The notes below the pieces were generated by a model. That model had not been told where the DNA came from and ran no database searches. It was given only the letters and a program-made list of their open reading frames with translations. Shown piece after piece: positions 4,291 to 62,479 of a DNA stretch of 64,000 bases. The translations under genes were made by a program, and so were the position numbers. Source of the DNA: Agelas oroides. Its lineage: Eukaryota > Porifera > Demospongiae > Agelasida > Agelasidae. Location of the stretch: the NCBI GenBank assembly GCA_949130485.1, contig OX422192.1, positions 6,074,085-6,138,084 on the forward strand, read 5' to 3'. How positions within the stretch are numbered: position 1 is the stretch's first letter; each line of letters starts with the position of its first letter.

Positions 4291-4486
4291 CTGGTAACAA
4301 TGTTAGTTGCACCCTCTTCACCTGAGGACTGTTTGTCTGAAGATTTATCGTCCTGGAAGTCCTCAAGGAATTCATAGTTGAACATAACCTTGAGCTTGTG
4401 ACTGTCAGCATGTACCTCTTCTTCCCATGTTGCACCTTCAGTTTTATTGGTTGTAACACATCTACTGAAGACCCTTTCAGCAACAT
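4291..4486 (-). CDS. TRPA-like gene 1, ankyrin-to-S1 linker exon
   Basis: A 196-nt exon after a CATTAG acceptor, ending ACCAG before GTATAT. It encodes DVAERVFSRCVTT, then an acidic linker and KVMFNYEFLEDFQDD. VAExVxxxC followed by FNYEFLED is characteristic of the TRPA linker after the last ankyrin repeat. A serine/glutamate-rich stretch (SSDKQSSGEEG) closes the exon. The paralogous exon 59,247-59,442 has equal length. Confidence 0.88.
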
Positions 4487-5539: not shown

Positions 5540-6842
5540 AACGGTGTTCCAGGCTCATCCACACGTGCCTAAAGCTTTTCACCGATCTCTTCTCATTTTA
5601 TATAGCGTAGTGTGAGCTTATCAGCGCACTGTTTGTGCATATGCTTGCATGTACAATTGCATGCTTGTTGAGGACTAGCCCGCTGAGCGAAAATGCTTCA
5701 CACACACTTCATGCACACTTTAAGGGCTTGGTGAAGGGTGAGGCCATTTGGTTCCTTAGGTCCAACTCAAGCCAGGATAACTACGAAAGAACAATCTCAA
5801 CTTTTAGGCATCACCTACTCTGTAGGGGGTACCCTAAAAGTTTTGTTGACCCACTCCTCTCCACAGTTCCATACTCCCTTAGAAACAACTACATCCAACC
5901 TCCTCATACCCCTAACCTCAACCTCTCCTCTAGCCTTAATGTCATCACTCCTTACTCCCCCTCACTTACTCACCTCTATCAAACTCTAACTCATCATTGG
6001 GACCTTATCTCTAAGGACACAAACCTCACACAACTCTTCCCTACTCCACAGCTTTGCTTCAGACAAGAAAAAGCAGTCTCCAACCACCTAGTCTCTGCTA
6101 AGACACTTGGAAGACCCCCTCCCCCTACAACCAACGTCCCACTGCTGATAAGTACAACCGCTAAAAGAGTAAAGCCATGTAATCACCCACTTTGACTAAC
6201 CTGCCCTAAACTACTTTCCTACAATGTCATCCATTCTAGCATTACATGTCAACCCTTCTACCTCACTGATACCTTCACCTGTAAAAGTACCAGTCTTATC
6301 TACTGCATCATCTGTTCTAAATGTTCCAAAATGTACATGTGTGTAGGACAAATTTCTAAATCTCTACTTAATCGCTTTGGCCACCATAGATCTGCAGCAA
6401 AGGAGAAGAGGAAGAGCACCTGGCCCATCTACCATCACTTCAGCTCCAGAGGACACAGCTTCGAGACACATGCGAGAATCCTGCCCCTTGAACATTGCCC
6501 CCCAAACCAGCTCCTATCTCGTGAGATACATTGGATCAGGGTACTTAACACAGTCCTCCCCTTTGGTCTGAATTCCCAGTACTCTATATAGGCCTCCCCA
6601 AGTAACATGAGCATCTAGGCTAGAAACCAAGTCCCTGGCCTGATTGATCCCCCGAGGTAGGTGCTTCCACCCTGATTATTCTAATACCTCTATGTACCAA
6701 CAACATATCGCATTTCCTCCACTCTTCCCTTCTGATACTCTTGTCCCATGTTTATTCCTGTATCAAAGCATTCTTTCCTCTTTCATGTATCATCACTTGT
6801 CAGACAGCCATGGTATATAACGACTCACCTCACAGTCACCAG
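5540..6842 (+). mobile_element. Penelope-like retroelement fragment (PLE-1)
   Basis: Open segments encode KGEAIWFLRSNSS, then LLCRGYPKSF and later a CFRQEKAVSNHLV region, the order seen after the reverse transcriptase core of Penelope-like elements. A further segment at 6,196-6,590 has the CIICSKCSKMY start, VGQ, NRFGHHR and HHFSSRGH pieces expected of the PLE GIY-YIG endonuclease. The RT core itself is missing, so this is a 5'-truncated copy. Frames are interrupted, so it is not active. A hammerhead motif follows directly at 6,845. Confidence 0.75.
6780..6830 (+). promoter_or_regulatory. TATA-like motif before the hammerhead
   Basis: GGTATATAACGACTC (about 6,811-6,825) lies some 30 bases upstream of the hammerhead, where a Penelope-like terminal repeat could hold its promoter. 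The assignment rests on the motif and position only. Confidence 0.25.
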
Positions 6843-10652: not shown

Positions 10653-10704
10653 ATGACAGTAAAGATCATTCATACAATAGCAAGTCAGACTAAGAGTCTT
10701 TTTT

Positions 10705-10924
10705 CATTCGCCATTGCACTCTGCCTGTTGTGTTTTGTTACTGTACTTCATTCACCATTACACTCTGCATGTTGTGTTTTGTTACTGTACTTCATTCGCC
10801 ATTGCACTCTGCCTGTTGTGCTTTGTTACTGTACTTCATTCGCCATTGTACTCTGCCTGTTGTGCTTTGTTAGTGTACTTCATTCGCCATTGCACTCTGC
10901 CTGTTGTGTTTTGTTACTGTACTT
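10705..10924. repeat. 44-bp tandem repeat, 5 units
   Basis: Units begin CATTCGCCATTGCACTCTG at 10,705, 10,749, 10,793, 10,837 and 10,881. The period of 44 is not a multiple of 3, and all frames happen to be open, giving a spurious 147-codon open frame. Confidence 0.9.
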
Positions 10925-11412: not shown

Positions 11413-11500
11413 CAATCAGGTACAGTAAATTCTTTGTTCAAAATGCAATCAGGTACATTCTTTGTTCAAAATGCAATCAGGTACAGTAAATTCTTTGTTC
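11413..11500. repeat. Short tandem repeat, about 3 units
   Basis: The block CAATCAGGTACA, a variable GTAAA, then TTCTTTGTTCAAAATG occurs three times in a row. Confidence 0.85.
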
Positions 11501-11639
11501 TCACTTCTCAACAACTCACGGTCTTATATGTGGTTTTGGCAGACAGAAATTGGACTAACTTCATGCTTCATGTCCATGTGGTAATAGTAATCATATTTCC
11601 ACACTTTAGTCATAGATACATATTGAGACTTGTATTGCA

Positions 11640-11826
11640 TTTATTTTGAGAATCAATTACCACCATCTTAGATTCTGCATTAAACAATAGTGTTCTAATT
11701 GTACACTGCATGTGTGATACTACAGAGCTGCCAAAGTTTGTGGGAACTAGCCCTTCGTCTACAAATCATTCTAACCCCATTTCAGAACACTGCATGCAGT
11801 GCAGCACAAACCAGTGTATTTTGGGA
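11640..11826. other. Intron segment shared with gene 2
   Basis: Collinear with 62,155-62,345, for example GTACACTGCATGTGTGA and the end CATTTCAGAACACTG. This is duplicated intron leading into the minisatellite. Confidence 0.75.
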
Positions 11827-12493
11827 GACTGTAATGCTAACAGTGATCAAGTTGCCTGACTGTAATGCTAACAGTGATCAAGCTACCTGACTGTAATGCT
11901 AACAGGGATCAAACTACCTGACTATAATGCTAACAGTGATCAAGCTACCTGACTGTAATGCTAACAGTGATCAAGCTACCTGACTGTAATGCTAACAGTG
12001 ATCAAGCTACCTGACTGTAATGCTAACAGTGATCAAACTACCTGACTGTAATGCTAACAGTGATCAAACTACCTGACTCTAATGCTAACAGTAATCAAGC
12101 TACCTGACTGTAATGCTAACAGTGATCAATCTACCTGACTGTAATGCTAACAGTGATCAAACTACCTGACTGCACATAATGCTAACAGTGATCAACCTAC
12201 CTGACTGTAATGCTAACAGTGATCAAACTACCTGACTGTAATGCTAACAGTGATCAAGCTACATGACTGTAATGCTAACAGTGATCAAGCTACCTGACTG
12301 TAATGCTAACAGTGATCAAACTACCTGACTCTAATGCTAACAGTGATCAAGCTACCTGACTGTAATGCTAACAGTGATCAAACTACCTGACTGCACATAA
12401 TGCTAACAGTGATCAAACTACCTGACTGCACATAATGCTAACAGTGATCAAACTACCTGACTGCACATAATGCTAACAGTGATTAAGCTACCT
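11827..12493. repeat. 31-bp minisatellite, 21 units, made of splice-donor copies
   Basis: Units start at 11827, 11858, 11889 and so on to 12459. Seventeen are 31 bp and four are 35 bp (insert CACA), ending in a partial unit next to the exon donor at 12,516. On the gene strand each unit reads CAGGTAGCTTGATCACTGTT (variants CAGGTAGTTT, CATGTAGCTT), closely matching the exon's own junction CAGGTAAGCTT. The paralogous intron has one copy of the same sequence after its donor (62,341-62,372). The array therefore looks like an amplification of the 5' splice-site region. Confidence 0.92.
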
Positions 12494-12515
12494 GACTATT
12501 AATGTTAAAGCTTAC

Positions 12516-12622
12516 CTGGCAAAAAAGCAATTAAGCCTCTCATTGGGGTAGTAAACGTGTTGTCAGAACTCCTCAACATCTCAACCCATTTTTCCTGCTC
12601 CAGAAGGAATGCAGCAGCATTC
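12516..12622 (-). CDS. TRPA-like gene 1, exon after last ankyrin repeat
   Basis: A 107-nt exon (1 + 35 codons + 1) after an AAAAATAG acceptor. It encodes NAAAFLLEQEKWVEML then TTPMRGLIAFLPG. The pattern of a final ankyrin helix followed by W-x-E-x-L and TPMRxLI is the known TRPA junction before VAExV, which is encoded by the next exon. The donor GTAAGCTT is adjacent to the minisatellite. The paralogue 62,373-62,479 has the same length and phases. Confidence 0.88.
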
Positions 12623-23334: not shown

Positions 23335-23650
23335 GTTATTTACTGACGGAAGTAAGCGCTCATGAATGATGACGGTTTTGTTGAGAGAGTGAGAAATAAA
23401 TCCACGGAAAAAAAATCCAGGATCCAGCTTGGATTCGAACCCAAGACCTGATGAATACTAGTCAGATGCTCTTACCGTTAAGCCACTTGGACCCCTGGCA
23501 GAGGAGTGGAAGACAAGCTAATAAGCAGCATTGCCTAGAAGGTTCAGCCGAATTCCAACTGACTATTCAGAAGCTCTTGGGTTCAAATCCCAGCTGGATT
23601 GTGGATATTTTCTGTGGGTTTATTTCTCACTCTCTCAACAAAAACATCAT
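23335..23650 (-). repeat. tRNA-derived SINE, minus orientation
   Basis: A minus-strand tRNA-like head (about 23,410-23,498) has anticodon loop CTAGTAT and B-box GGGTTCGAATCC, like the copy at 2,319. The surrounding GAGAGAGTGAGAAATAAA is shared with 1,960-1,985. A second partial tRNA-like head follows at 23,560-23,600. Confidence 0.7.
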
Positions 23651-29689: not shown

Positions 29690-30655
29690 AGGCTGTACTC
29701 TGAACTCCGGTCTGGACTTTTGGTCTGGACTATGGACTGAAATTCGGAATGAAATTTGGACTGATGCACAACTCCACATTGACTGTTTTCTTCTGAGAAT
29801 CACTGGCTTGGCTAAAGCAGTGGTTCTGCTGCTCTCTATTTATGTATTAATGTTGTGTAAGTGTTACTTGTTAGTCAGCATCTAGTTACCTGAGTCCAAG
29901 AGAGCAGACTGAGCATGAAAATGCGTTTCAGAATTGAGCCATTCAAGGCTTAACTCTGTTCTCATATATACAGTGGGAAACACCAAGACAGGTTTGAAGA
30001 CCTCTGTTGATTCTGATATTCAGTGAGGCTGAACAAAGCTAGATGTAGCGTCACAGGCACCGAACAATCACTAGCATCTTTAATTAGCGAAAAAAGACAC
30101 TGTTCGATTCTCAGGCTGGATCTTTCTTAGGCTAACTCTGCATGATTAGTACCGAGGTACTTTTGCTGCCACCAGAGAACTGGGTAATAGCAGCAGCCAC
30201 TTTGTATGTGCCATCAGAACCCCATTTATGGGAGCCAACCGGAAACATTTCTCCTTCTGAAGAAAAGCCATACAAACAGTGTCTATGGATAAATGCCATC
30301 TATCCTCTGCTACCAGAGCTCCAGTGGCTCAGTTGGTAAGAGCATCTGACCGGAATTCAGAGGACCCAGGTTCGAATCCTGGCTGGATCTCATGTCTTTT
30401 TTTGCCATCATTCAACTCTGCAAATAAAATACATCCTTCAATCTTTAATTAGGCTTCAGTCACATTACGAGAACCTACAATGCTCTCGGATAAAGTATAA
30501 TTATGATCTTTAAACAACAGTTTGAGACACTGAGATTACGAGATTGCCAATGTCAAGTGAGCATCAGTCCAAATATTGGTCCAAATTTCAGTCCATAATC
30601 TAGTCCCTAGTCTATTCGACGAGTCCATGCAGTCTAGAGTCTATAGTCCAGCTTT
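29690..30655. repeat. TIR element with TGGACTGA-rich ends
   Basis: Left TATGGACTGAAATT and TTTGGACTGATGC are mirrored on the right by GCATCAGTCCAAA and AATTTCAGTCCATAA. The 1-kb element contains the tRNA-like head below. Confidence 0.6.
30318..30394 (+). repeat. tRNA-like SINE head with good A and B boxes
   Basis: Acceptor GCTCCAG/CTGGATC (one mismatch), D stem GCTC/GAGC, anticodon arm TCTGA/TCAGA with loop CCGGAAT, T arm CCAGG/CCTGG with loop TTCGAAT. A-box TGGCTCAGTTGG and B-box GGTTCGAATCC are canonical and a T7 run follows (30,397-30,403). Position 33 is C, not the universal T, so a working tRNA is unlikely; it is probably a SINE or tRNA pseudogene. Confidence 0.65.
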
Positions 30656-30729: not shown

Positions 30730-31327
30730 CTCTTTCTTATTTTTGATGGTGATGTCAGCCCCTCTTTTAACCCTTTACCAACCAATGACGCCATATGGCG
30801 TCGTCAGATTTTGGCCGCATGTTATCAGTTAGCGCAATCCGTTTTGAAAATAGGCTCTGCGCTAGCAGAAAGGGTGGGACAGGGGGAGGTAGGTGGGTGC
30901 ACCGCTCTGGCTGACAGTGCATGGCGGCGGTTGCAGCTGCCTGTACAAAAGCCTTGGTCAATGCCGGGTGGGCCATTTGTCTGCTTTCTTGCACAAACGG
31001 GTGTAGAAAACGCTCCTTTCACCTTGTAGGGACTCCATTTCTGGCATTTTAGGCAGCTTTTAGTCCGGAGGAGCGTTCTCTGGTTGAAGGGCCCTGATTA
31101 TTGAACGCTCGCTAATGAGTGGGTGTGTCCAAGGTCATGAACCTACAGAGAAAATGTCAGTAAAGCTTTGAGTCAAGTTTCCGGTGCTAGCTCCAAGCAG
31201 AAGTGAAAATACGGACCATGGAAGGTATCCATAGCCTAATAAACACTTCCAGTAAATAGCCTACGGTTGTTAAAGAGTTAACAAGGTCTTTCAATATGTT
31301 CACATGGCCACCTTCAGCTCCCCCAGA
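30730..31327 (-). pseudogene. Ankyrin exon split by a TTAA-flanked insertion
   Basis: The minus strand after acceptor AAATCAG reads SGGAEGGHVNILKDLV, then a 507-bp insertion, then RGADITIKNKKE and a GTGAGT donor. Across the TTAA duplication the two halves form an ankyrin repeat in one phase-0 frame, about five codons shorter than its neighbours near the TPLH motif. A host exon killed by a DNA element. Confidence 0.75.
30771..31277 (+). mobile_element. piggyBac-like MITE in the ankyrin exon
   Basis: Flanked by TTAA on both sides (30,767-30,770 and 31,278-31,281). The ends CCCTTTACCAACC and (complement of right end) CTCTTTAACAACCG are imperfect TIRs; TTAA duplication plus a CCC start is the piggyBac signature. 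Subterminal palindrome GACGCCATATGGCGTC. No transposase. Relatives at 54,829-55,340 and 21,560-22,112. Confidence 0.8.
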
Positions 31328-32700: not shown

Positions 32701-35700
32701 CGAGACTAACTAAGTTAACATTTGAGGACGGGCCGGTGGGCGGGGTGCCAAGCTTGGGGCGCGACTGAGCATGTGCAGGGAAAACTCATTTGTGCACTCC
32801 CAGTTGCATGTGTGGGGAAGGGATCAGCTTTTGGCTAGTGGCAGAGAAAAAATGGCGGGCTCAATCCGTCGTCAACCCATTTCTGTATGGCTCCGGTATT
32901 AAATCGGCGTTGGTATCATGTCCGAAGAAGAGCAACGTGACGTGGCCGCGAAGTCAGGCGCGGGAGAAGATGAAGATGGGACGGACCGAGCGGGAACGTC
33001 CTCGCCCAGATGACTCGAGCTTACGGAGGCCCACCTATCGGCGATAGCGGACAAAGTAGTTGAAAAGCTGACAGCAGCCAAGGCTCCGCCCGAGCGCCAA
33101 GGGAGGAAGTTGGCGGGCTAGTCTCGTGGGCCGCACCATTAGGGGTGTGGTTTTTGCGGGACAGGTCAGCGACGGGGCGTTCACCGTCTGAAGTTCCCGT
33201 CACTGACAGTTCTGGCTCATGGTGGTTGGGCGCTGTCAGGTTGGGGGGACCCACATTTACGGAGGTGTGGTGAGCAGAGGGCTCACTTACAGAAGGAAAG
33301 TGTGTGCTGGGGCTGGCCTGCTTGTACGGTGCAAGCAAAGGGAGGTGGGGCTGGCCACATGGGTTGGCCCAGCCAGCTTGCGCAGGGCAAGCTTTGCACA
33401 GGAAGGTTGGGCGAAGGGCTCATCAGCCTGCATTGGGCAGGCGGTGGTGGCGGGGAGGGGGGAATATGCCACTGGCATTTAGCAAGTGTGCTGATTTGCA
33501 CAAGGGTGGGTGTGCTTGAGGACCACTTGTGGCGCAGCACGGAAGGAGCACAGGGCTTCCGGTTAGAGATCCACAAATCATGCAGATAAGAGGCTGTTGG
33601 TGGCACAGGAAGGAGTGCCTGAGACAAAGCTGCAGCTACAAAAAACTGCAAGTGGTCTCACATCGACCCAGGTCTGTATAACCACGTGTTCACAGGCCGG
33701 GCGTGCAAGCTAAAGTTCTGCAAGCATTGCAGTGCCACCACGCATGGATCGGAGGAGTGCACGGAAGGCAATCGGAAGCAGCCTAATGAGCAGCAGGTGG
33801 GGGGTTCCAAACTGCCAAAAATGGCCAAGTCTGATGTCTGCTTTCTATTCAACCGAGGCTGATGCACCTACCATGTGTGCAAGTTTTGGCACATGTGCTT
33901 CACTTGTGCTGGAAGACATACTACGTATGCTTGCCCTAGAAAGCTGGATAGGGGCCCTGTTGCTCTCCCGCTGGGCAACCCCTCAGGACCACAGTACCCC
34001 AAATTCTGAGTCAACCTGATGAGCCAGGGTGTAGTGGATCACTGATGGAGGGTGGGCGCTACCAATATCATGACTAGGACTGGACAAGTGCACCCCTTTA
34101 AGCTATGTGCCCACTCCGAAGCAACTTTCGAGGATGGTGACCCCACTCAAGTTACGGGAGTGGGAGAGTGAACTTGTTTCGCACCCTGATAGGGAATACT
34201 CACATTACTTGATACGGGGTATTCAGGAGGGTTTCAGAGTAGGCTTCATTGCCAAAGTCCCCTCAGATCCTCAGGGGATAACATGCCATCAGCCCAAGAG
34301 CAAGCTGCAGTAGTAAAAGAATACTTGGGGAAGGAGTGCGCAGAAGGTAGAATGGTTGGTCAATTGGATCTAAATGAGTGGCCTGGCATCCATGTTAATC
34401 CATTTGGGGTCATTCCAAAATCTACCCCAGGCAAGTGGCGGCTCATCACTAGTCCGCCCCCCTGCATGGCAGCATCAACGATGGGATTAGCAAAGAATTG
34501 AGTTCTTTGTTGTACATCTCAGTGGATTTGGTAGTGGAACAAGTAGTCAGGCTGGAAAGGGGAGCTCCACTGGCAAAGTTGGACATCCAATCCGCTTATA
34601 GAATTGTCCCAGTGGATCGTGACGATTGCTGCCTATTTGGAATGAAGTGAAAGGGGCAGCTATTTGTGGACTGCGCATTGTCGTTTGGCGTCATGTCAGC
34701 CTTCAAAATTTCATAGCACTAGCAGATGCAGTAGAGTGGGTTGCTTCTCATAGAGGGGCACAGGGCATTGCACACTACCTGGATGATTATATCATGTGGG
34801 GGGCTCCATTGTCCAGGGATTGTGCAGAGAGCCTAAGAATACTGCTGGAGATGTGCTCGGAGTTGGATATCCCAGCAGCTAGCCAGAAGTGTCAGGGGCC
34901 AACAATATGCTTAGTATTCTTAGGCATAGAATTTGACACTATGAGCATGGAGCTGAGGTTACCCAAAGAAAAGTTAGAGCATCTGCAGGCCCTCATCACA
35001 AGCTGCAGAGGGAGGAAGAGCTGTCAGCGGCATGAGCTGGAGTCCCTGCCTGGTAGGGCACTTGCATCATGGCTAAATGGAATGGCGTTTCGGTTTTGAG
35101 GAAGCCTTCCTTTACCTCTCTGGAAGTGCAGCTGCATTCTGATGCATCGGGGTTTTGGGAATGTGGAGCAGTGGGGGGACAAGCATGGTTCTAAGTATCA
35201 TGGCATCAGCAGTTGTGTTCAGTGGGGGAGCACCAACACCAGCTGGCACATCGGTGTTCATTATATGCACATACACAAGAGTGTGAAGTTGAAACATAAT
35301 GGGATATGGGGATGGGGTATTTATGGCTTAGATGGGATGGGGCATTTATGCCGCTTAAATGGGTGGGGCATTTATGGCTTAAATGGGTGGGGCAGTTATG
35401 GGAAAGTTAGTTATTGTTTTTTTGGGGAGATATGCTCAAAAATCACTGGTCTTCAGGGGAGTACCCTTTCCGGTCCTCGCATGACCACGGGTTTCGGTCC
35501 CTTTGAACTCCCGACCCGTGGCCTACTACAGAAAGGGCGGGACTAGCCTCGTTCCCAGTCCACCACAGTTATCGTCGCTTGCAGTATGAATAATGCGGAG
35601 AAGGCCTGGTGAAAATTATCACGTGATGTATGCCACTGTCTACGTCACACGCTGGACACTCTGGTCAGTGCTGTGGCGAGTTTCTCGTGGTGAGTATACT

Positions 35701-35894
35701 AGTTTGTGTGTGAGACGCGGTCGGGGGGCTTTAAATGGGAGCATGCTTCTCTTAGTAACGGCATACTTATCCTAGTAACGGCACCTTTACGCTAGTTATG
35801 GCGTGTGCTTTGCTATAGTAACGGTACGCCTAGAGGAATAGTCGGTTCCGTAAGGCTGAGCTATGGCTAGGGTTGGGCTGGAGCTGTTCGGTGT

Positions 35895-36415
35895 TATCTT
35901 TGAGGCTCACTCATATTGACATTACGAGTATGAGACTCTCTCACACTTGACTAACCACTGTGAGGCTCTCTCACAGTTGCGCTAAGGGTCTGAGGCTCAT
36001 TCATATTAATATTTCGAGTGTGAGGCTCTCTCACACTTGACTTATCAGTGTGCAGTTCACTCACAGTTACGCTATGGGTCTGAGGCTCACTAAAATTAAC
36101 ATTTCGAGTGTGAGGCTCTTTCACAATTGACTTATCACTGTGAGGCTCACTCACAGTTACGCTATGGGTCTGAGGCTAATTCAGATTAACATTACGAGTG
36201 TGAGGCTCTCTCACATTTGGCTTATCACTGTGAGGCTCACTTACAGTTACGCTACGGGTCTGAGGCTCATTTAAATTAATATTACGAGTGTGAGGCCCTC
36301 TCACACTTGACTTACCACTGTGAGGCTCTCTCACAGTTGTGCTAAGGGTCTGAGGCTCACTCATATTAACATTACGAGTGTGAGGCTCTCTCACACTTGA
36401 CTTAGGGTTGTAAAG
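35895..36415 (-). repeat. 30-bp GAGGCTC array (90-bp higher-order unit), array 1
   Basis: Each 30-bp unit begins GAGGCTC; three variant units make a 90-bp unit. On the minus strand the array is open and reads 10-residue units starting EPHTRN, EPQT and EPHSGK. No start context or splice signal supports a real protein. Confidence 0.85.
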
Positions 36416-37801
36416 ATGTACTTGACTAAGTTTTGGAAGGCTCACTTGTGGCTGAGTTGTAACAGTAAGCTCAGATACCGGAGCCTCTCTATGTGCATGC
36501 TGTAGGTTTCTCTATATACAGGCTGGGTCAGGGGCTGTGTTAGGATAAAGGCTTTATATATGTGTATATATGTGGAGATGGATAAAGACGAGGTGTTTTG
36601 ACTACAGCTGTCCTTCCTCTCGCTACACTGTGGTAGCTAAGTGGAGATCCCCTGCGGACGGGGTTGCGGGCCTGGGTGGGTTGACTGTACAAGCACAGTG
36701 CCTGAGCGGATACTCTCACTATCCACCACCTCAGCCTCCAGCTCAATTATCTCTTCACCAAAGGGCTATCCTATGGTTAACTTTGGAAAATGGGAATGGG
36801 GCTGGGGCAAGGAATTATTATTGGTGAGATATTCCAACATGCACAGTGAGAAGTCTAGCCTGGTGCTTATTGTTATTATGTTTAGGTCTAGGGCATGCCT
36901 AAGGTGTTAGAACACGTGTCTTCGGGTGGATCCATTGAAGGATGCTGCGGGTTCCCCATTTGGCTAGGCTGACAGACTTTATCTGTACCTGCTTGTTCAG
37001 AAGTTGTGTTGAGTGGGGGAGCACCAACACCAGCTGGCACATCGGTGTTCATTATGTGAAATTTTTTTAATGCATACACAAGAGGGTGAAGTTAAAACAT
37101 AATGGGATGTGGGGATGAGGCATTTATAACTTAAATGGGTGGGCAGTTGTGGCTCAAATGGATGGGGCAGTTATGGGAAAGTAAGGTATTGTTTTTGGAT
37201 GCTCATAAAACACTGGTCTTCAGGGGAGTACCCTTTCCGGTCCTCGCATGACCACGGGTTTCGGTCCCTTTGAACTCCCGACCCATGGCCTACTACAGAA
37301 AGGGCGGGACCACTCCCCGCCTAAGGTTTGCTTTGAGTGAGGAGCCCAGCTGTCGGTTGGCATTCACACAGCTATATATGAATATATTACTAAGCAAATT
37401 GGGGGTGGGGCTAAATGGGTGGAGTTATCATAACACTAACTAGGGGGATGGGCGGACCAACATACCGTCTCCCGGCTGCAGACTCGCTGTTGTCCCGTGT
37501 GTCTGGAAGGCTTGTTGTTCGGCGGTAGGCGTTTCTGTACTGAAGACTCTTTCGCTGGACACTCAGGTCTGTGCTGTGGTGACTTTCTTGCGGTGAGGAT
37601 ACTAGTTTGTGTGTGAGACGCAGTCGGGGGGCTTTAAATGGGAGCGTGCTTCTCTTAGTAACGGCATACTTATCCTAGTAACGGCATCTTTACGCTAGTT
37701 ATGGCATGTGCTTTGCTATAGTAACGGCACGCCTAGGGGAATAGTTGGTTCCGTAAGGCTGAGCTATGGCTAGGGTTTGGCTGGGGCTGTTTGGTGTTAC
37801 C

Positions 37802-38078
37802 TTAGAGGCTCACTCATATTGACTAACCACTGTGAGGCTCTCTTACAGTTGCGCTAAGGGTCTGAGGCTCATTCATATTAATATTTCGAGTGTGAGGCTC
37901 TCTCACACTTGACTTATCAGTGTGCAGTTCACTCACAGTTACGCTATGGGTCTGAGGCTCACTAAAATTAACATTTCGAGTGTGAGGCTCTTTCACAATT
38001 GACTTATCTCTGTGAGGCTCACTCACAGTTACGCTACGGGTCTGAGGCTCACTCAAATTAACGTTACGAGTGTGAGGC
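37802..38078 (-). repeat. 30-bp GAGGCTC array, array 2
   Basis: Same unit as array 1, shorter; its right edge abuts the second RNase H part of the DIRS-like element. Confidence 0.85.
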
Positions 38079-50184: not shown

Positions 50185-50690
50185 CACTGCAAAAACAACT
50201 TGGTTGCTTTATCATTCGGTGGCTATATACCCTGGTTGCAGAAAAACTGAAGAGGCAGTGGTCTGGGTGAACACGTTCCTCTTCGTATTTTGTAGCTAAT
50301 GGAGACAAATTGCAACCATGCAGATGGTATTGAAGGAATTCAGATGTTATGAGGCGAAAATAGAGGAAAGTGCTGGGATTCGAACTCAGGACACCTCTGG
50401 CTTGAGCTGCCAGTGCTCTGTCACTTACCCATGACAGCAGGACAACCACCAACCCCCACAATCCTCTATATGTACTGCACAGGTGGTACTGAATGCCTAG
50501 CTCAGTCACACACCTGGCAGTCACACACCTGTCCAGCTGTCATGGCTCAGTAGCAGAGCACTGGCGGCTCAAGCCAGAGGTGTCCTGGGTTCAACTCCTG
50601 ATGACTGCCGGCCTTTTCACTTTCCTCTATCTTTATTTCCAGCATGAGGCAACATGCTCAGATGGTAAGCTTGAGCATTATAACAATGGG
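50185..50690. repeat. CACTG-MITE end with head-to-head tRNA-like SINEs
   Basis: Starts CACTGCAAAAACAACTTGG like the MITE family. Inside, a minus-strand tRNA-like head (about 50,365-50,450; B-box GAGTTCGAATCCC) faces a plus-strand head (about 50,538-50,608; A-box TGGCTCAGTAG, B-box GGTTCAACTCC). Both share GGCTCAAGCCAGAGGTGTCC. Confidence 0.65.
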
Positions 50691-52487: not shown

Positions 52488-53641
52488 CTGGAGAATGAAT
52501 AAAATACAGTTGGATTGGCACGACTTTATTCAAAATTGGACATACAGGTATTACAAGACAGGGAAGATTTTATATCAAAATAGCTTCATACACCATGCAA
52601 TGTGAGTACACACAAGCTCAATTATAACCAAAATTTAGGGAGATGAGCTATTCCCGCTACTTAATAAGCCCATATGACAAGGGAAAATAATTAAAGCTGT
52701 CCTATTGCTGGGGTTACTAGTACCTTACACTACTGAATTTAGTTTTTGTTGCAAGGTAACTGTGAAAGCTTCACTATTGCAAGGCTAAACTTTGTGAGTT
52801 CAAAACTGAATCTTTCCAAGGGTGCTTGTACTTTGAAGCTTGTGGGCTTGCATTCATGGTGCATAAGAGTAATCCTGCCAGTTACAAACAATTTTGGCAC
52901 TTTGCTCCATGGATCAACTGTTATGCTGTACAGTAAAATGTTGCAGTAGAACTGTATCTTCAACCATGTTACTAGCCAGTCTGGGTTATATAGAAGACAG
53001 CAGATGCATATATCACTTTTTTCCCTTTCAATGGATTTATATTGCAACCACACAAGGCATATACATTGTATTGGTGGGCTTGTGTTTGACATTCAGTTTA
53101 ACTACAGTGCAAAACAGGTTACTCTTACTGCCTGATAGCTGAAAATAGGCAGCTGGCCGTTCAGCAAACGTTATGCGTGCACACACTAGCAGAACCCGTG
53201 TCACTGTATTAGTATTTGTCGAGGGAAGACGGACTTGTATCATATCCAAGAAAGGTATACACCTGGTACATGAAGCGATAAATGCCTGCTCTTGGGGGTG
53301 GAACACAACTCGAGTACCACCTTCGCATATGCCGATCCTCGGAGTTTAATATGCTTTTCGCTGTGGCGTAGTTGTTCTTCAAGTGCGGTCTTCCCATCAA
53401 ATATGATGGTATTGAATGCAACTTTCCACTTTAATACTCAAGCTGATTCTAGTAATGTGAGATGGAATACAAATGCCTCAAACAAAAATCGCCCAATTAA
53501 AATTTGCCAAACCCCTTTTCTGGCGATATATCGCCTAGTTTAATGCCCCGCCATATTTTCCCACTATACGCTGGTAGGTTATGATCACAATGATAAACAG
53601 ACACTGCAGTCTGATTGCTCAGCTTTGCACAGTATACGTAC
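52488..53641. other. Intron of gene 2
   Basis: 52,829-53,130 is similar to 590-900 in gene 1. The part 53,150-53,560, richer in CG, has no counterpart in gene 1 and is probably an insertion; no recognised protein. Confidence 0.55.
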
Positions 53642-54123: not shown

Positions 54124-54177
54124 CTCCACAGTCCTCTGGTGCTGTTCCATTGAATGATCCATTCAAAACTTCAGTGC
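54124..54177 (-). CDS. TRPA-like gene 2, S1-S2 loop exon
   Basis: A 54-nt exon: CTEVLNGSFNGTAPEDCG, acceptor TTTGCAG. Two glycosylation sequons (NGS, NGT) and two cysteines, as in gene 1. Confidence 0.85.
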
Positions 54178-54828
54178 CTGCAAAATATGGACAAACCACT
54201 TTCAGAGCTCTACCTGGGCTATTCTATAAGAACGAAAACTTATATGGTAATCTATTAAACTAGTACAAAGGATGCTGTGTACTTGACACCTCCTTGAACT
54301 ACAGACATGAAAATCCAAAAATCTAGCTGGTTAACTGCAACTTGTTCTAAAGTTACTAAAGACTGCTTCTTTCAAACATTTGGTTCAAAGGTTCATGTGA
54401 ATAGTCCCATGTTTCAGAATAGAGTACATTAAAAGGTGACACCAAGTTTAATTATGAACAATGGCCATGGCAAATGTTCAAGGATGTAAAGTAAGGTCAT
54501 TGTGGTCTGCCAGTTCCAATAAAAGTTTCTCATTTAAGATAAGAACATCAGCATATTCAGCAAGCATTTCAGCATAAGGTAGATAGGCCTCTGCAATTCT
54601 ATGCCATAACGTTGAGTGTTGGTACACAGAGGTGGGATTTGGGTTTGGTGGGGGGGGGGGGGGGTATGATCAGATTTATTGGTGGGGTGTAGTGGGCGAA
54701 AAATGGGGCTTGGCATTGGACAATTGAGATTCTGGCAATAGAAGCTTTCATTCGTTGGAGTTCATTTGACATGGAGCTGGAGTTGGTAAGGGCACTTAGT
54801 TTGGAGCAGATGTCACTAATATCATCTT
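54178..54828. other. Intron of gene 2
   Basis: A G-run at 54,650-54,665. Nothing else recognised. Confidence 0.4.
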
Positions 54829-55340
54829 TTAACCTTGTAACAACTGATGATGCCTTTTGGCATCATCAGTTTTTGGCCGCATGTTATCAGTTGGCGCAAT
54901 CCGTTTTGAAGATAGGCTCTGCGCTAGCAGAAAGGGTGGGACAGGGGGAGGTGGGTGGGTGCACCGCTCTGGCTGACAGTGCATGGCAGCCGTTGCAGCT
55001 GCCTGTAGAAAAGCCCTGGTCAATGCCAGGTGGGCCATTTGTCTGGCGCTGACAGTGCATGGTGGCCATTGCAGCTGCCTATAGAAAAGCCCTGGTCAAT
55101 GCGGCAATGCCGGGTGGGCCATTTGTCTGCCTTCTTGCACAAATGGGTGTAGAAAATGCTCCTTTCACCTTGTACGGACTCCATTTCTGGCATTTTTGGC
55201 AGCTTTTAGTCCGGAGGAGCATTCTCTGGTCGGAGGCCCTGACTATTGAATGCTCGCTAATGAGTGGGTGTGGCCAAGGTCATGAACCCACAAGAGAATG
55301 GGCCCCAAAATCTCAGTGGGGGCCACATAATGTTAACTAG
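54829..55340 (+). repeat. piggyBac-like MITE relative
   Basis: Starts TTAACCTTGTAACAACTGA with palindrome GATGCCTTTTGGCATC, and is collinear with 30,771-31,140 (AGAAAGGGTGGGACAGGGGG). An inner stretch is duplicated (55,010-55,110). The right end differs from the 30.8-kb copy. Confidence 0.75.
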
Positions 55341-61920: not shown

Positions 61921-62372
61921 CTGTTGCTTATAGCACTAAGCCTCTAGTTAGCCTTCCCAGCCAGCATACAGCAAGGGAAAGCTGTGAAAACATGGCCACT
62001 TTGTGCTTCAACAGCCCAATTATGCAGTAATACACCTACTGGAACTGTACTGGAAGCCCCTGAGTTTGGGCACCTCGCTATAAGGGACAAAATGTTGCCT
62101 CCCAGTGGTATCTGCTGTAGAGGCGTTCCACTGTATTGCTTAAAAGCATTCATTTTGAGAATCAACCACTGTCTTAGATTCTGATCCTGTTCTAACCAAT
62201 GTACACTGCATGTGTGACACCATAGAGCTAGCTGCCAAAATTGGTGGGAATAAGCCCCCTTATCTCTTCCACCACAAGTCATTCTAACCCTATTTCAGAA
62301 CACTGTATGCAGTGCAGTGCAAACCATTATATTTTGGAACATTGTAATGCTAACAGTATCATGCAAGCTTAC
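61921..62372. other. Intron of gene 2, matching gene 1 minisatellite flank
   Basis: 62,155-62,372 is collinear with 11,640-11,830, and holds a single copy of the gene 1 minisatellite unit (GTAATGCTAACAGTATCATG). Confidence 0.8.
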
Positions 62373-62479
62373 CCGGCATAAAAGCAATTAAGCCTCTCAT
62401 TGGAGTAGTAGACACTCTGTCAGAACTCTTCAACATCTCCTTCCATTTCTCCTGCTCCAGAAGGAATGCAGCAACATCC
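62373..62479 (-). CDS. TRPA-like gene 2, exon after last ankyrin repeat
   Basis: 107 nt: DVAAFLLEQEKWKEMLKSS, TTPMRGLIAFMPG; acceptor CAAACAG, donor GTAAGCTT. Further ankyrin exons of gene 2 should lie beyond the right edge. Confidence 0.9.

Follow-up and report, generated by a model that had tools for sequence, protein, structure and literature searches.

How did a minisatellite come to stand directly behind a splice donor in one of two neighboring gene copies, and what would its units do when that gene is spliced?

Two gene copies and the exon beside the array

The window, by which we mean the whole 64,000-nucleotide stretch of Agelas oroides DNA that was analysed, carries two copies of one gene, called here A and B, both on the minus strand. 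Six exons were mapped in each copy, beginning at 12622 in A and 62479 in B and proceeding downstream. The exons have GT-AG borders and give 1,009 nt when joined, with the frame open throughout. Compared with the PDB, the provisional exon join of copy A had a best E of 7.8e-21, and all nine sequences listed were TRPA1; the join of copy B had a best E of 1.6e-24, and nine of the 11 sequences listed were TRPA1, the other two being TRPV6. An Ion_trans domain falls in the last mapped exon of A and B alike. Judged from these matches, both copies are predicted to encode TRPA1-like channels, with pore-region exons that match TRPA1. A paralogue search of the window, which took in exons 1, 2, 4, and 6, found none beyond A and B with exons 1, 2, and 6, and just four chance-level matches with exon 4 (E 0.15 to 0.68).

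Three of the mapped exons frame the question:

12516..12622, minus strand: exon of TRPA1-like copy A, 107 nt, with donor CAG/GTAAGC (CAG ends the exon); based on the six-exon open frame and TRPA1 matches in the PDB
62373..62479, minus strand: homologous exon of copy B, 107 nt; based on exon mapping and the open frame
4291..4486, minus strand: next copy A exon, which closes the array-holding intron; based on exon mapping

The copy A exon shares 77% protein identity with its counterpart in B, and is supported as an exon because the six mapped exons, joined via its donor, make an open TRPA1-like frame in both copies. The copy A intron that follows it and holds the array is 8,029 nt long.

Structure of the array

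An initial reading of the DNA, the first-pass annotation, had counted 21 units of 31-35 bp behind the donor of this exon. The count was borne out by Tandem Repeats Finder (TRF), which reports a 31-bp unit in 21.1 copies with 93% matches at 11827-12497, and by alignment of the individual units. The parts of the junction in copy A, in the order in which they leave the exon, and the matching place in copy B are as follows:

12495..12518, minus strand: donor-bearing stretch, 24 nt, CAGGTAAGCTTTAACATTAATAGT, opening with the CAG that ends the exon; from alignment to the unit
11828..12494, minus strand: array of 21 units with 12 distinct sequences, with CAGGTAG or a variant at each start; from TRF and unit alignment
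11637..11849, minus strand: end of the last unit plus following intron sequence, which aligns with the single unit of copy B and its downstream sequence; from the A/B alignment
62341..62375, minus strand: single unit copy in paralogue B, including the donor CGG/GTAAGC; from alignment to the unit and collinear position

Seventeen units are 31 bp long and four are 35 bp, the longer ones carrying an extra TGTG. CAGGTAG begins 19 of the 21, with CATGTAG and CAGGCAA at the start of one each. Pairwise identity among the units, with gaps counted, averages 0.92 and is never below 0.80. The most variable of the 31 unit columns is the one equivalent to intron base +5 (C in 10 units, T in nine, G in one, A in one).

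The 24-nt stretch at 12518-12495, with the true donor in it, is probably a truncated first unit. Aligned whole to the unit, it reaches a score that only 3 of 126,270 other positions attain, whereas its tail part alone is matched by 3,669 of 126,292 positions when anchored and by 10,189 of 126,332 when unanchored. The array adjoins the exon, and what is probably its first, shortened unit holds the exon's donor, which places it among donor-seeded intronic minisatellites of the ABCA7 type, a class that we defined for this analysis from the account of the ABCA7 repeat in PMC5954066.

No higher-order blocks were found within the array: differences between units at lags 1 to 12 were never clearly smaller than after shuffling (60 shuffles per lag), the lowest fraction being 0.083, at lag 8. 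Expansion driven by hairpins was considered and found unsupported, with z-scores of -0.77 to 0.91 for five RNA folds (units, the B copy, and a junction piece) and of -1.42 to -0.07 for four sequences folded as DNA. A 30-nt unit string had no exact match in prokaryote genome contigs and a 22-nt unit core none in viral contigs; the last-exon protein gave five pattern matches in viral contigs, none of them confirmed. These collections say little about a locus such as this one.

The same intron of copy A contains two more tandem arrays, at 11413-11500 and 10703-10924, which lie 1.0 and 1.6 kb from the donor and not at a mapped junction. A frame at 6196-6591, also in this intron, matches GIY-YIG at 18.9 bits, below the cutoff of 22.6, and is perhaps part of a Penelope-like element.

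Elsewhere in the window, two arrays of a 90-bp unit (35901-36404 and 37805-38078) sit in a larger duplication, 35650-36206 being 90% identical to 37553-38078. Minus-strand frames cross parts of both as peptide repeats (PHTRNVNLSEPQTRSVTVSEPH), and the two frames scanned there had no match in Pfam. A direct repeat pair at 30763-31156 and 54825-55300, 89 and 91% identical in two pieces, is likely an interspersed element. There are tRNA-like matches at 2330-2391, 23421-23492, 30318-30390, and 50536-50609, the last being a tRNA-Glu called by ARAGORN and absent among the three Rfam hits. The surroundings of two of these matches, 2262-2502 and 23554-23321, share 81% identity over 243 nt and point to a short repeat derived from a tRNA.

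A single unit at the same place in copy B

At the matching place copy B has CGGGTAAGCTTGCATGATACTGTTAGCATTACAAT, followed by the sequence that in A comes after the array. A blastn alignment of A with B stops at A 12508 = B 62365 and restarts at A 11849 = B 62361, so that the gap between the two flanks is 3 nt in B and 658 nt in A. Outside the exon the flanks are 76 and 78% identical; both were realigned separately, the left one after being cut by hand at 12508.

The first-pass annotation had also given the paralogue just one copy of the unit, and this was confirmed at 62375-62341. Aligned over these 35 nt of B, the unit scores 37, a value reached by none of 126,248 other positions in the window, and in a local shuffle test the B 35-mer scored 40 against at most 33 in 10,000 shuffles. 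The best local alignment of B with a doubled unit has the GT register shifted by 3 nt.

The two halves of the unit contribute unequally. Its 3' half scores 30 in B, equalled by 4 of 126,332 windows. Its donor-like head does less well in B: unanchored, 3,409 of 126,332 windows match it as well, and anchored, 259 of 126,282 do, or 44 of the 7,802 in which a GT occupies that place; for the commonest form of the head, with T, the anchored count is 1,044 of 126,282. At the copy A donor, 613 of 126,332 windows do as well as the head when unanchored, and none of 126,296 matches the C form of the unit start over the first 11 nt when anchored. The part of the head that lies outside the splice consensus (GCTTGAT) is not distinctive, with 52,976 windows doing as well for A and 12,381 for B. 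By these comparisons the tail of the unit supplies most of the evidence of kinship with B, which the head matches modestly.

Placement was judged separately, for 24 mapped junctions and seven arrays, among them the one at 11827-12497, that have at least three copies of a unit of 20 bp or more. The chance probability of finding an array edge within 3 bp of a mapped junction is 0.036, and within 20 bp it is 0.195; the TRF edge of this array is 19 bp from the donor. Placement alone would therefore not establish that the array descends from the exon-intron junction; descent from the junction is the best reading because position, collinearity, and the order of the parts come together.

Units as predicted donors

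The first-pass annotation had described the units as nearly the true junction, had counted about twenty decoy donors in a row, and had proposed that each be scored as a splice site. The likeness stands for the unit start, where 20 of the 21 units keep the GT in register and 19 keep CAGGT. It fails at the positions most important for splicing: none of the 21 keeps GTAAG, and each lacks one base of the true donor, reading GTAG or a variant.

We scored the units by U1 duplex energy and with a matrix for human donors. The matrix gives the true donor 7.11 and the 19 CAGGT units 2.06 (17 units), 2.32 (one), and 6.13 (one); U1 energies are -11.0 for the true donor, -7.7 to -8.0 for 18 of the 19, and -11.8 for the remaining unit, which is the high scorer of the matrix as well:

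12195..12203, minus strand: sole strong decoy donor of the array, CAG/GTAGGT, CAGGTAGGT; matrix 6.13, U1 energy -11.8

What is left of the decoy row is thus one unit donor, at 12203, predicted to be about equal in strength to the true donor, and 18 predicted to be weaker, yet within the range of the donors mapped in both genes. Where they fall in that range depends on the measure: the 18 weak units beat 8 of the 12 mapped donors (six homologous pairs from A and B) by U1 energy, but 3 of the 12 by the matrix.

The same intron has three sites outside the array with a matrix score of at least 6, so strong and presumably unused sites are not peculiar to the array. The true donor of copy A ranks with the group's strongest sites and adjoins the exon, and for these reasons most splicing should use it. 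Among the other mapped donors, the one at 54124 in copy B, GAG/GTTTGG, is very weak (matrix -0.55), and its copy A equivalent, GAG/GTGGGA, scores 3.29.

Origin of the array

The first-pass annotation had the array growing out of the donor region, and derivation from the exon-intron junction is indeed the most likely origin to judge from the two copies, because B has a single unit at a place collinear with A on both sides. More specifically, we consider it probable that the minisatellite was seeded by the splice donor of the TRPA1-like copy A, through tandem duplication there. A segment reaching from two or three bases inside the exon to about 30 bases into the intron was duplicated in tandem, as seen from the one copy in B against the donor stretch and 21 units of A between collinear flanks, and this would have happened in copy A. 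The exon ends CAG in A and CGG in B, and the units begin CAG, which fits a duplication that included two or three A-type exon bases, although three letters are weak evidence. The copied donor would have lost one base, GTAAGC becoming GTAGC, and the weakened unit would then have multiplied to 21 copies via ordinary repeat instability. The units are about 92% identical to one another and the A/B flanks 76 and 78%, so either the multiplication postdates the split of the gene pair or homogenisation has kept the units alike. The resulting array would most likely be neutral or mildly harmful, with some splice leak, as measured for the ABCA7 repeat.

Growth in A appears the simpler reading than loss or shrinkage in B, although in the single contig sequence examined, unit loss in B via recombination would yield the same picture. 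An array that predated the gene pair, and that shrank to one unit in B by recombination between its first and last copies, would leave just what B has, a donor-type start joined to the shared unit tail. For such an ancestral array the high identity among the units of A, set against that of the flanks, would call for continued homogenisation, and a gain followed by a complete loss is less simple than one gain; we regard this history as unlikely. A chance origin, in which an unrelated minisatellite or mobile sequence landed beside the donor and merely resembles it, draws on the abundance of tandem arrays in the window (TRF gives 31 rows, partly overlapping, for the 64 kb), on a placement that is not significant at 20 bp, on the indistinct unit head outside the splice consensus, and on a fuzzy search with the unit core, in which the B copy needs four edits, as many as places at 52912 and 18669. 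Against it, B has the unit once, at full length and in collinear sequence, with no array, and nowhere else in the window does the whole unit score as well; we regard this origin as very improbable.

Donor-seeded growth, our preferred reading, is compatible with a regulatory role under selection, in which the U1 sites or poison donors lined up in the array would reduce or adjust the output of copy A. The array does concentrate such sites: its 0.67 kb hold 19 with a U1 energy of -7.7 or lower, against 9 in the remaining approximately 7.4 kb of the intron, and 19 with a matrix score of at least 2.0, against 19 in that remainder. By U1 energy, too, the 19 units are better than 8 of the 12 mapped donors, but by the matrix 17 or 18 of the 19 beat just 3 of them. 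Selection for donors or for U1 binding would be expected to preserve GTAAG and G at +5, but no unit keeps the former and only one has the latter, and in the ABCA7 data of PMC5954066 array length altered skipping of the next exon only, not retention of a single unit. Selection for such a device therefore seems improbable.

Most units read AG/GTAG, a possible acceptor joined to a donor, and could be taken for a run of recursive (zero-length exon) splice sites, a reading to which CAG/GT in 19 of the 21 units and the length of the intron lend something. Recursive splice sites have a strong pyrimidine tract before the AG/GT. In the 17 nt before CAG, pyrimidines make up 0.47 to 0.59 of the bases in the 19 units, and 18 of these units are at or below 0.53; for the 12 mapped acceptors the fraction runs from 0.53 to 0.76, with 11 at or above 0.59. 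The units are lower on the whole, and the ranges overlap. Counted by eye, the standard unit contains further AGs that end 4 and 12 nt upstream. We find recursive splicing here scarcely credible.

Consequences of using a unit

Reading on past the true donor adds Gly-Lys-Leu and then a stop in A, and Gly-Lys-Leu-Ala and then a stop in B. All units lie downstream of that in-frame stop, and the frame is kept open by the first donor alone. Occasional use of a unit would lengthen the exon by at least 24 nt and reach the Gly-Lys-Leu stop; because every unit lies 3' of the stop, the protein would end before the pore region whichever unit was used. Several mapped exon junctions follow the stop, and messages with such a premature stop are expected to be degraded. 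A unit-spliced message would thus either be degraded or produce a channel without a pore, and the first donor is predicted to be the only one compatible with a channel.

The array could be a length-tunable brake on copy A only, with the eighteen weak U1 sites and the strong one at 12203 competing with the true donor and each site that wins leading into the one stop. We think this a long shot. Were it true, array length would set channel dose differently between the copies and between individuals.

Known parallels

The closest parallel is the VNTR in intron 18 of human ABCA7 (PMC5954066). It follows exon 18 immediately, with 23.7 copies of a 25-bp unit in the reference, and opens with the two bases of that exon's donor GT. 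The donor one unit downstream is used there and puts the message out of frame; retention of one unit, which the order of two figures suggests is about 2%, is independent of array length, whereas exon 19 is skipped more often when arrays are longer (PMC5954066). Both repeats are intronic minisatellites right behind an exon, with the donor in the first unit and a similar unit size. The ABCA7 repeat differs in being C-rich and in varying from about 12 to 427 units between people, by the same account. The copy A array belongs to another gene, has another unit, lacks GTAAG in its downstream units, and has a paralogue in the one-copy state.

In human IFI6 (6-16), two downstream units of a minisatellite are used as donors and three mRNAs result, according to the sentence in PMC4526556 that cites Turri et al. 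1995, a paper cited also in PMC2572611. There too a minisatellite offers several donor sites to one transcript; the difference is that its two downstream units are really used.

The model of Rogers derives introns from tandem duplication of an AGGT segment, and fission yeast genes have multiple tandem copies of a 24-bp segment around gained introns, as summarised in PMC4974935 and PMC3629103. The copy A array likewise arose, on our reading, from a segment holding AG/GT duplicated in tandem; in the model the segment is exonic and the intron new, whereas the copy A segment belongs almost entirely to the intron and gives no sign of a new one. Intron gain was rejected for this locus, as the exon contributes no more than its final two or three bases to the unit and the same intron is present in B.

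Significance

We conclude that an array of this kind is already known, from the disease-linked ABCA7 repeat, and that the special value of this locus is the one-copy state of the paralogue: a neighbor gene with one copy in collinear sequence makes a donor-seeded origin unusually readable. ABCA7 (PMC5954066) shows that arrays adjoining a donor can matter in disease, and the sponge locus suggests that exon-intron junctions may seed minisatellites in quite different genes. Copy A would then be a natural test of how well a gene tolerates some twenty weak donors next to its real one.
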